From Streptomyces sp. NBC_01428 (lineage in GTDB: Bacteria > Actinomycetota > Actinomycetes > Streptomycetales > Streptomycetaceae), in contig NZ_CP109499.1 in the NCBI RefSeq assembly GCF_036231965.1, forward strand, positions 8,556,001 to 8,620,000: a DNA stretch of 64,000 bases. Reading direction: 5' to 3'. Position numbers and translations under genes: made by a program. Position 1 is the first letter of the stretch. Each line of letters begins with the position of its first letter. Of the stretch, positions 28,336 to 31,566 are shown piece by piece. The notes beneath the pieces are model-generated. The model did not search any database. It saw nothing but the letters and a program-made list of their open reading frames with translations, and had not been told where the DNA came from.

Positions 28336-29592
28336 TCAGAAGGGCAGGGCGAACGGCGGGTGGGCGCCGTTCAGGAAGTAGTCGCCGACGTCGCGGACCC
28401 GGTGGGCGACCGGTTCGTGCAGCGTGTGGGTCCGGACGTTGCGCCAGAAGCGGTCGAAGCCGAGGCGTGCGGAGGCCGCGCGGGGGCCGACGATGTCGAG
28501 GGCGCGGGCGGTGGACTCCTGCGCCGCCCTGGAGGCGGCGGCCTCGGCCATGGCCACCAGGGCGGAGACCTCCGCGCACTCGTCGTAGGTGAGGTCCTCC
28601 CCGCGCGCCAGACCGACGTGCACGGCGTCCAGCGCCTGGGCGGCCAGCGCGGACGCGGAGCGTACGAGGACGGTGAGTTCCCCGAAGGCCGTCAGCACGT
28701 GAGGGTCCTGCGGCGAGCCGACCGGCCAGGCGGGGTGCCAGACGGAGTGGCCCGCTCTGCTGTACTCGCGCGCCTCGGCGAGCACACCCTCGGCCATGCC
28801 GAGCAGGAGCTGGACGGAGACCAGGCGTCCGACCGGGGAGGAAAGGGCCGTCAGGGGCGACAGGACGTCCTCGTCCGCGGACAGTGAGCCGAGTACGTCG
28901 CGGGCGGGGACGGGAACGTTGTCGAACTCCACACTGCCTCCGGCGGCGAGCCGCTGGCCGAAGGTGTCGGCGTCGGCGTCGATCCGCACACCGTGATGGG
29001 CGGGGTCGACGGCGACGGCGAGGGGTTCGCCCGTGTCGGCCCGCTCCGCCCGGACGGCCAGCCGGTCGGCCACGAGGACACCGGTGGCGTACCTCTGCCG
29101 GCCGTTGAGAACGTAGTGGCCACCCTTCCGCGCCAGGGTCGGCGACGGTTCCTGCCGGGCGAACCCGCCCGCCCAACACGCCTGCTCGCCGGCCGACTTG
29201 TGCTGGGCCGCAGTTCTGCGGTGCGGCTGGGGCTGCGGGGTGACGGCGGCGGACTGGGCGAAGTGCCGGGCGCTCCAGGACAGGAAGTAGTGACAGCCGA
29301 GCAGTTGACCGATCGCGCCGTCGGCTGCGGCGATCTCCCGGACCACGGCATAGGCCGTGGACCAGTCCCCGGCCCCGCCCCCGGACTCCGCCGGCACGAG
29401 CAGCGCCAGCAGCCCCGACTCCCGCAGGCGGGACACCTCGTCGAACGGGATCTTCCCGGCCTGCTCCCTCGCCACCGCGTCCGTGGCCAGGTCGTCGGCC
29501 GTCTCGCGGGCGACGTGCAGCCAGTGGGCGCGACCGGGCCCGGTTCCGTCGGACTCCGGCTCGGCTCCGGACGGCGCGGTGGCGGGGCCCAT
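28336..29592 (-). CDS. SfnB/DszC-like acyl-CoA-dehydrogenase-fold flavoenzyme
   Basis: 418 residues of the acyl-CoA dehydrogenase superfamily. The C-terminus THTLHEPVAHRVRDVGDYFL is characteristic of the SfnB/DszC branch, FMN-using monooxygenases or sulfur-acquisition oxidoreductases, not beta-oxidation enzymes. The usual catalytic Glu position is not conserved visibly. A Gly/Gln/His-rich insertion (QPQPHRRTAAQHKSAGEQ) is odd. AGGAG precedes the ATG. The ~300-nt leader carries a Cys-codon peptide and alternative hairpins, linking expression to cysteine supply. Confidence 0.88.
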   Translation of the reverse strand: MGPATAPSGAEPESDGTGPGRAHWLHVARETADDLATDAVAREQAGKIPFDEVSRLRESGLLALLVPAESGGGAGDWSTAYAVVREIAAADGAIGQLLGCHYFLSWSARHFAQSAAVTPQPQPHRRTAAQHKSAGEQACWAGGFARQEPSPTLARKGGHYVLNGRQRYATGVLVADRLAVRAERADTGEPLAVAVDPAHHGVRIDADADTFGQRLAAGGSVEFDNVPVPARDVLGSLSADEDVLSPLTALSSPVGRLVSVQLLLGMAEGVLAEAREYSRAGHSVWHPAWPVGSPQDPHVLTAFGELTVLVRSASALAAQALDAVHVGLARGEDLTYDECAEVSALVAMAEAAASRAAQESTARALDIVGPRAASARLGFDRFWRNVRTHTLHEPVAHRVRDVGDYFLNGAHPPFALPF

Positions 29593-29715
29593 GGCGATGG
29601 TCTCCTCAAGTTCGGCGACACGATGTGGTGGTGGGGCTCATGCGGATCGGGTGATGCGTGCACGCGGCCCACGCCGCTCCCCTGCGGTGGCGATCCTTGG
29701 CCCGGCCGACAGGAC

Positions 29716-29763
29716 CGTCCCGGTGGGGACGCCGAACGGGGGGAGAGGGACGGCAGACGTCCC
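29716..29763 (-). promoter_or_regulatory. Four-segment alternative-hairpin region (possible attenuator)
   Basis: On the transcript strand GGGACG, CGTCCC, CGTCCC, GGGACG follow in order (29763-29758, 29752-29747, 29731-29726, 29721-29716). Segments 1:2 and 3:4 can pair, or 1:3 and 2:4 instead. This is the logic of an attenuator between the leader peptide and the flavoenzyme gene; no experimental support. Confidence 0.4.
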
Positions 29764-29890
29764 GCTCGGGGACCCGGTGAGGAATCGCTGTGCGAAGGCG
29801 CCGCATCAGGGGTGCGCGCGAGAGCCGGGGCCGCGTCGTGGTCCGTTCGAACCGGGGTCGCGGCCGAGCGTGTGCGTCGGAAGCGGTGCC

Positions 29891-29974
29891 CTAGGCGCGA
29901 CAGCAGCCGGCGCCGGCGACGCGGCCAAAGTCGATATGCCGACGACGTACGAGTCGTAGCTGCATAGAGGGCAT
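29891..29974 (-). CDS. Cys-rich sulfur leader peptide
   Basis: 27 codons. The C-terminal part reads RRRHIDFGRVAGAGCCRA, the pattern of leader peptides found before sulfur-assimilation genes in Streptomyces (RRHID...RV..A.CR). Two consecutive Cys codons precede the end. The ATG at 29974 sits 7 nt after a CAGGAT -10 element, so the mRNA is probably leaderless; an in-frame ATG at 29965 is the alternative. Ribosome stalling at the Cys codons would report low cysteine and control the flavoenzyme gene. Confidence 0.8.
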   Translation of the reverse strand: MPSMQLRLVRRRHIDFGRVAGAGCCRA

Positions 29975-30002
29975 GTACATCATCCTGCGCAGTCGACGGG
30001 CG

Positions 30003-30040
30003 GGCCGTCAATATATTCCTAGTAAATCGATAGGAAATAT
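30003..30040 (-). promoter_or_regulatory. Operator dyad and -35 of the sulfur leader promoter
   Basis: An AT-rich dyad, ATATTCCTA (30013-30021) with TAGGAAATAT (30031-30040), stands out in GC-rich DNA. TTGACG on the minus strand abuts it (about 30011-30006) and CAGGAT follows 18 nt later. A repressor or activator here would control the sulfur leader; the cysteine-less Rrf2 protein is one candidate. Confidence 0.6.
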
Positions 30041-30197: not shown

Positions 30198-30266
30198 ATG
30201 AACGTCACCGGCCGCACCATCACCGCAACCGCGCGAGCGACCAGCTCGCCGGTTGCCGCCGTCTGA
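30198..30266 (+). CDS. Possible Ala/Thr-rich leader peptide
   Basis: 22 codons (five Ala, five Thr) begin at an ATG 7 nt after TACGGT, so could be leaderless. It ends 133 nt before the AlaRS-like gene; a CCACCG/CGGTGG hairpin lies between. Attractive as an amino-acid-sensing leader, but short frames occur by chance here. Confidence 0.3.
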   Translation: MNVTGRTITATARATSSPVAAV

Positions 30267-30399
30267 CCTTCCCCCTTCCACCGGCGACCGGAAACGGCCC
30301 GTCGGTGGTTCCGTGGCGTTCAGGCTCTCCTGCCCCGGTGTCGTCCCGGCGGACCCGTTGTCCGGTGCCTCCCCGCATCGCTGCCAAGGAGACCCCGTC

Positions 30400-31566
30400 A
30401 TGCAAACGGAGCAGATCGTCCGCACGTTCGTCGAGTACTTCGAGGAGCGCGGTCATCGCCGCGTCACCGGCTCGACCCTGCTGCCGCCGAGCGGCGGCCC
30501 GGTGCTGTTCACCACCTCGGGCATGCACCCCCTCACCCCGTATCTGCTGGGCCGGCCTCATCCGCTCGGCAGACGACTGGTCAACGTGCAGCGCTGTCTG
30601 CGGACCACAGACCTGGAAGAGGTCGGCGACGACACCCACCTGACGGTCTTCGAGATGCTCGGCTCCTGGTCGCTCGGCGACTACGAGGGGCCGCAGAGCC
30701 TCGACTGGGGACACCGGCTGCTCACCGAGGGGCTGGGGATCGATCCGAGCCTGCTGTACGCCACTGTCTTCGCCGGTGACGAGCAGACCGGGCCGGACAC
30801 GGACTCCCTCGGGCTGTGGCAGGAACGCGGAGTCCCCGTGGAACTCACCGTCGAGGACAACTGGTGGTCCAACGGACCGGTCGGGCCGTGCGGCCCCGAC
30901 TCGGAGATCTTCCTGTGGAGCGGGGACACGCCTCCCCGCTCGACGCCCACTTGTGACGATCGCTGGGTCGAGGTGTGGAACCACGTGATGATGCGCCATC
31001 GCCGGCTCGAGGACGGATCCCTCGTGCCGCTTCCCCACCGCAGCGTCGACACCGGACTCGGCCTGGAACGGCTCGCCTGCCTGCTCCAGGGGAAGTCGTC
31101 CGTCTTCGACTGCGACGTCTTCGAACCCTGGCGCCGCCTCGTACCGTCCCTGTGGCCGCTGGACGAACCCTCGCTCCGCCTGGTCGTCGACCATTTGCGC
31201 TCGTCCGTCGTGGTCGTCGGCGACGGCGTGCGCCCGTCCGCCACGGGCCAGGGCTACGTACTGCGCCGCCTCGTGCGCCGGGTGCTCACCACCCTGTGGC
31301 GGGACGAACCGTCCCGCACACTCGGCGACCTGCCGGACGAACTGCTGCTCCACACCCTCGATCACTTCCGTCAGGACGTGGATCCCGGCGAGGTCCGGCA
31401 GGTCCTGCTGGACGAGGAGCGCCGGTTCGGCCGTCTCATGGAGCGCGGCCGGCAACTCCTGGCCCGCCTCCGCTTCCAAGGCCCGCTGGGGGACGAGGAC
31501 TTCCACTACCTGCACGACACGCACGGCCTGCCGCGCGACCTGGTCCTCAACCTGCGGGAGGAGTGA
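30400..31566 (+). CDS. Truncated alanyl-tRNA synthetase paralogue (catalytic domain only)
   Basis: 388 residues against about 890 in full AlaRS. It retains the class II core: LFTTSGMHPLTPYLLGRPHP, TTDLEEVGDDTHLTVFEMLG, WNHVMM, motif 3 DTGLGLERLA and GYVLRRLVRRVL from the tRNA-recognition domain. The editing and C-Ala domains are absent, and the gene ends cleanly. AAGGAGA lies 7 nt before ATG 30400. Such stand-alone copies may aminoacylate tRNA without proofreading, serve in biosynthesis with Ala-tRNA, or give resistance to an AlaRS inhibitor; none can be chosen from sequence. Confidence 0.85.
   Translation: MQTEQIVRTFVEYFEERGHRRVTGSTLLPPSGGPVLFTTSGMHPLTPYLLGRPHPLGRRLVNVQRCLRTTDLEEVGDDTHLTVFEMLGSWSLGDYEGPQSLDWGHRLLTEGLGIDPSLLYATVFAGDEQTGPDTDSLGLWQERGVPVELTVEDNWWSNGPVGPCGPDSEIFLWSGDTPPRSTPTCDDRWVEVWNHVMMRHRRLEDGSLVPLPHRSVDTGLGLERLACLLQGKSSVFDCDVFEPWRRLVPSLWPLDEPSLRLVVDHLRSSVVVVGDGVRPSATGQGYVLRRLVRRVLTTLWRDEPSRTLGDLPDELLLHTLDHFRQDVDPGEVRQVLLDEERRFGRLMERGRQLLARLRFQGPLGDEDFHYLHDTHGLPRDLVLNLREE

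Follow-up and report, generated by a model that had tools for sequence, protein, structure and literature searches.

How is the SfnB/DszC-like flavoenzyme gene of Streptomyces sp. NBC_01428 controlled, and does the short frame ahead of it, which ends in two cysteine codons, take part? A sequence-only reading of this DNA had described a compact cysteine switch made of an operator dyad, a leader peptide, an alternative-hairpin attenuator, the enzyme and a cysteine-less Rrf2 regulator. Here we follow up that description in the window (the whole stretch of DNA analysed, 64,000 nucleotides long) and in homologous loci. The reading we favour, and hold to be fairly probable, is a two-layer sulfur switch in which an Rrf2 operator is combined with a Cys leader. 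It keeps much of the switch as claimed (the leader, an operator-like dyad, the sulfur context and an Rrf2 gene tied to the dyad), whereas the attenuator is not supported.

Layout of the locus

Region 30040-29593 was inspected directly as minus-strand sequence, and all the sequence elements claimed at the locus are indeed there: the dyad, TTGACG, the leader frame, the four segments and the cysteine-free Rrf2 gene. Reading along the minus strand, the dyad ATATTTCCTATCGATTTACTAGGAATAT is followed by TTGACG, an 18-nt spacer, CAGGAT, 7 bases and the ATG of the leader MPSMQLRLVRRRHIDFGRVAGAGCCRA. A gap of 298 nt separates the leader from the enzyme gene, and the Rrf2 gene lies further downstream of the latter. 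The features, all on the minus strand, are:

30013..30040, minus: putative operator dyad, with its core CCTA-N9-TAGG at 30018-30034
30006..30011, minus: -35 element TTGACG; the spacer to the -10 element is 18 nt in 67/71 homologous promoters
29982..29987, minus: -10 element CAGGAT; CAGGAT in 60/71 homologous promoters
29891..29974, minus: 27-codon leader peptide, predicted leaderless, ATG at 29974 and TAG at 29891; NF042934, 23.5 bits
29905-29903 (TGC) and 29902-29900 (TGT), minus: leader Cys codons; the frame ends Cys-Cys-Arg-Ala-stop
29697..29890, minus: post-leader stretch common to the window and sister strain L015 only (blastn; 90.7% identity)
29763-29758 (GGGACG), 29752-29747 (CGTCCC), 29731-29726 (CGTCCC) and 29721-29716 (GGGACG), minus: the four segments
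29593..29696, minus: apparent 3'-end remnant of a winged-helix regulator gene (blastn to the intact gene of relatives, best E 6e-10)
29607-29602, minus: Shine-Dalgarno GAGGAG, inside the winged-helix remnant
28336..29592, minus: SfnB/DszC-like flavoenzyme, 418 aa; TIGR04022, 229.4 bits; NF043015, 228.7 bits
27780..28238, minus: cysteine-free Rrf2 regulator, 152 aa; PF02082; NCBIfam CymR 83.7 bits, IscR 75.7 bits

The dyad and its promoter are widely conserved

The homologue sample comprised 80 loci with enzymes 63-96% identical and 12 further loci, a few of which come from the same strains. The sequence-only reading had staked its case on such loci keeping the dyad and the frame, and this check came out in its favour; the dyad precedes the enzyme gene in nearly every one of the 78 homologous loci having upstream sequence, and the leader is kept in about 63%. 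Kept as they are across dozens of species, the dyad, promoter and leader exceed chance. The dyad is AT-rich and abuts the TTGACG/CAGGAT promoter, and from the dyad to the ATG the window and L015 are identical (66/66). The leader ATG stands 7 nt past the -10 element in 59 of 71 homologous promoters, a fixed spacing that is consistent with leaderless transcription from this ATG. Dyad and promoter are retained in homologous enzyme loci lacking the leaderless peptide too, and in L009, L070 and L071 the enzyme ORF itself starts at the leaderless ATG.

Within its own 9.08 Mb genome, the dyad is a single site even with up to 2 mismatches allowed. An operator matrix picked up no further site, either in the window or near the 14 other leader-like loci scanned in this genome, and hence no wider regulon among the scanned places. 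In some relatives, a weaker variant of the dyad occurs just beyond the Rrf2 gene (L124 position 2025, L125 position 2048 and L130 position 2091, each on the minus strand). Between -900 and -450 from the enzyme start, the window and L015 are only 55% alike, becoming near identical from the dyad on; the neighbourhood just upstream of the dyad therefore differs between the two strains.

The leader resembles the leaders of sulfur genes

An intact homologous leader was found in 49 of the 78 loci, 48 by a first scan (L089 and L092 among them being aberrant) and that of L079 by eye. The consensus end is QQRLVRRRHVDFGHVVSAACCRA followed by a stop codon, with the first Cys invariant (47/47) and the second present in 46/47 leaders. 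At the fourfold-degenerate sites of the last 18 leader codons, identity is 93%, whereas these species share only 69% at such sites of their enzyme genes, and even the best 18-codon enzyme window (89%) stays below the leader. This high identity points to a constraint on the RNA besides the peptide.

The leader had been claimed as a type that Streptomyces places before sulfur genes, and the comparison with known families agrees. The model NF042934 ('putative leader peptide', class cis_reg_atten), to which the Cys-rich leaders Ms5788A and Ms4527A belong, has an Arg-rich stretch, H-(I/V)-D, a Cys near the end, an apparently leaderless start and a place before sulfur genes in common with the window leader. 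The latter reaches 23.5 bits as a protein and 23.1 in a genome search, narrowly missing the cut-off of 27, which counts against a two-layer switch, and it differs in having two adjacent Cys and in lying under an Rrf2-type operator. It has the R-R-x-H-(I/V)-D motif and terminal Cys, conserved homologues and sulfur-gene neighbours. About 13 further leaders of the NF042934 type were found in the same genome, ten above the cut-off and several just below. Several of them stand ahead of sulfur genes (names assigned by eye from translations), which include MoaD-like and CysK/CysM-like genes, nitrite/sulfite reductase-like and thiosulfate sulfurtransferase-like genes, a sulfonate-type ABC transporter (permease), an O-acetylhomoserine sulfhydrylase-like gene and flavin monooxygenases.

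Several other short frames were seen in the homologous loci. L003, L007 and L009 have a second leader-like frame upstream of the dyad in the opposite direction, reading RLVTRDHIDFGRVWSAACCA and then a stop codon in L007 (by eye). In L026, L039, L043, L045, L050 and L060, another short conserved frame of the MAHTSFPPVRLNTPFCKRT type stands at the place of the leader, and is perhaps a decayed or altered leader. Leader-family matches also adjoin Rrf2 genes in G007, G012, G017 and G026.

UGU as the final Cys codon of the leaders

In the strain's genome, TGT is the final Cys codon of every one of the 14 leaders that have one there, the window's included (a by-eye count), and the remaining Cys codons are TGC with one exception. 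TGT also ends the Cys codons of 27 leader loci from other genomes, many of them mutually orthologous and hence not independent, while their other Cys codons are TGC (14/14); a 28th leader locus, read in a wrong frame or strand, was left out of this count. As a rough background, TGT makes up about 21% of Cys codons (23/109, in window ORFs picked by composition), and its share is higher in the enzyme homologues (94/249, many at orthologous positions). This rule of UGU at the last leader Cys is new here, and gives a leader-peptide family that is widespread a codon rule open to testing, with UGU at the presumed sensing position. Reading UGU through tRNA-Cys wobble would, we infer, heighten sensitivity to shortage; a reason in RNA pairing is also possible. 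A bolder proposal, which we put forward tentatively and lean a little against, is that UGU is a dedicated sensing codon of Streptomyces sulfur leaders and that, in this clade, the leader RNA is also constrained, with the Rrf2 operator above it giving a double gate for cysteine and sulfur status.

The enzyme, the Rrf2 regulator and the dyad

The enzyme had been suggested to serve sulfur acquisition, and the gene context in relatives supports such a role. Beside the enzyme genes of relatives lie genes for a taurine/sulfonate-type ABC ATPase and permease, a TauD-like dioxygenase, flavin monooxygenases (SsuD-like, and NtaA/DmoA above cut-off) and a cystine-type binding protein. The window enzyme resembles the DszC/SfnB/MsuC flavin monooxygenases in matching the DszC and SfnB models over nearly their full length, and its best solved relatives are DszC (4doy, 4jek and 3x0x) followed by methanesulfinate monooxygenase (6u76). 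It nevertheless falls far below both equivalog cut-offs, which are 430.9 bits for SfnB (TIGR04022; 229.4 bits reached) and 850 for DszC (NF043015; 228.7 bits reached).

The Rrf2 protein matches its family firmly (PF02082). It contains no cysteine, and hence none of the three Fe-S cysteines; the same is true of 39/40 linked orthologues. In this it is like CymR, the cysteine repressor of Bacillus and Staphylococcus, which is also an Rrf2 protein without Fe-S cysteines and linked to sulfur uptake genes, and the solved CymR structures 2y75 and 3t8r are among its best structure matches. CymR of S. aureus senses oxidation via a cysteine (PMC9338935), whereas the window protein has zero. Its 83.7 bits to the NCBIfam CymR model remain far below the cut-off of 195, which counts against a two-layer switch, and its 75.7 bits to IscR remain far below 207.55.

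An Rrf2 gene is found within 7 kb of the enzyme gene in 42 loci. Across 37 Streptomyces genomes, an Rrf2 of the same group is present in 21, and the dyad (up to 2 mismatches) occurs in 13 of these 21 vs none of the 16 without it. Since a reversed control pattern also yields a few matches, the two-mismatch sites are weaker evidence; at no more than one mismatch, the figures are 10/21 vs 0/16. As the dyad tracks Rrf2 over these genomes, it is probably the Rrf2 operator, and the cysteine-less Rrf2 gene that had been noted at the locus can be tied to it. The association is not independent proof, because the presence of the dyad and that of Rrf2 both go with phylogeny and with the enzyme gene. It does offer a concrete candidate operator sequence for the cysteine-free Rrf2, and the locus as a whole links this uncharacterised regulator and an uncharacterised flavoenzyme family to Streptomyces sulfur supply.

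The stretch between leader and enzyme

About 37 homologous loci have an intact gene for a 189-aa winged-helix protein between the leader and the enzyme gene; the protein carries a PhoB/MtrA-type DNA-binding domain at its C-terminus. In the window, the ~100 nt nearest to the enzyme start match the 3' end of this gene, and the ~190 nt directly behind the leader gave, besides marginal short matches, blastn matches to L015 only. To judge from these alignments, the winged-helix gene was deleted in the window lineage and its 3' remnant kept, and the leader would therefore now directly face the enzyme through a lineage-specific RNA. In the enzyme-free genomes G012 and G022, too, operator and leader stand ahead of the winged-helix gene, and so the unit of operator, leader and winged-helix gene is probably older.

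In the relatives, the stop codon of the leader is immediately followed by a GGCAC..GUGCC hairpin, with pairing above that of shuffled arms (44/5000 shuffles reach it, in a test where relatedness was uncontrolled and the 3' arm was picked by motif). This hairpin is absent from the window, which counts against a two-layer switch. RNAalifold on 29 relatives gave 20 pairs, none of them changed on both sides, and in the consensus fold the leader base-pairs with the ribosome site ahead of the following gene, without compensatory changes. Rfam gave no match in the window. When a stalled ribosome was modelled with ViennaRNA in 47 loci, exposure of the ribosome site was not clearly different between the free, stalled and at-stop states (means of 0.20, 0.20 and 0.21 in winged-helix loci, and 0.36, 0.37 and 0.39 in enzyme loci). 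Modelled stalling freed the Shine-Dalgarno neither in the window nor in relatives, and this too counts against the two-layer switch.

A proposed two-layer switch and its alternatives

Conservation in the sequences compared extends to the promoter, the dyad, the leader, its Cys codons and the sulfur-gene context; Rrf2 binding and cysteine sensing we infer. In the upper layer, a CymR-like, cysteine-free Rrf2 repressor would sit on the dyad by the -35 box and keep the promoter off when sulfur is plentiful. In the lower layer, going by the known leader family, the transcript would start at the ATG of the leaderless leader with its late Cys-Cys codons. Scarce Cys-tRNA would then stall the ribosome at these codons and raise the downstream gene, by analogy with mycobacterial Cys-rich leaders. 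The polycysteine leaderless short ORFs before mycobacterial sulfur genes are reported to work by ribosome-paced translational attenuation (Canestrari et al., 2020, as cited in PMC9094748, PMC9031893 and PMC13236596). The window has in common with the ORFs so described a predicted leaderless short ORF with Cys codons before a sulfur gene, while here the case is made from sequence and the modelling gave no freed Shine-Dalgarno. As far as the literature found shows, the leader mechanism has been tested in mycobacteria and not in Streptomyces.

Must the leader still work in the window lineage? It may be a relic, with the operator layer alone controlling the enzyme as in leader-free relatives. This would fit the reduction of the winged-helix gene to a remnant, the missing hairpin and the departure of the window frame from the consensus at several otherwise conserved residues; many relatives work without a leader, and L027 has a visibly broken one. 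Yet between the window and L015 the leader is identical at 82/84 positions and the RNA just after it at 175/193, so that the leader looks kept, though the strains are very close, and we regard a relic as unlikely. Far less credible is a classical transcription attenuator formed by the GGGACG/CGTCCC segments, the part of the sequence-only reading that we rejected as a likely mechanism. All 24 segment bases are intact in L015, and a set of four within 60 nt is uncommon (10/2000 dinucleotide shuffles), which for a set noticed after the fact is only weakly above chance. The segments occur in these two strains only, where relatives have the winged-helix gene, and the block is not specially kept, because its identity (43/48, or 89.6%) does not exceed the 90.7% around it. 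It begins ~130 nt past the stop codon of the leader, a long way from where a ribosome would stall, and has no U-run behind it. Folding of the RNA, which had been proposed as a check, was no better than for shuffles over the whole RNA (z = -0.25). With segments in two strains and no excess folding, the conserved exclusive hairpins and terminator of a classical terminator/antiterminator were not found.

The dyad could also be bound by another regulator, such as the winged-helix protein or a more distant Rrf2 paralogue. Some dyad loci have no Rrf2 within 7 kb, and G009 and G013, which carry the dyad, have no closer Rrf2 than one of 68% identity at another place in the genome. However, dyads remain where the winged-helix gene is lost, the enzyme-free G012 keeps dyad and Rrf2 no more than about 2 kb apart, and none of the 16 Streptomyces genomes lacking the Rrf2 group has the dyad; another binder thus seems rather improbable to us.

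The divergent neighbour

Divergent to the Cys leader, at 30198-30266 on the plus strand, is a frame that reads MNVTGRTITATARATSSPVAAV up to its stop codon. This is nearly the attenuator peptide AlaL of S. lividans, MNVIGRNIFATARATSSPVAAA (PMC8079986). After this frame, at 30253-31566 on the plus strand, comes an alanyl-tRNA-synthetase-like gene that covers the N-terminal part of the model only.
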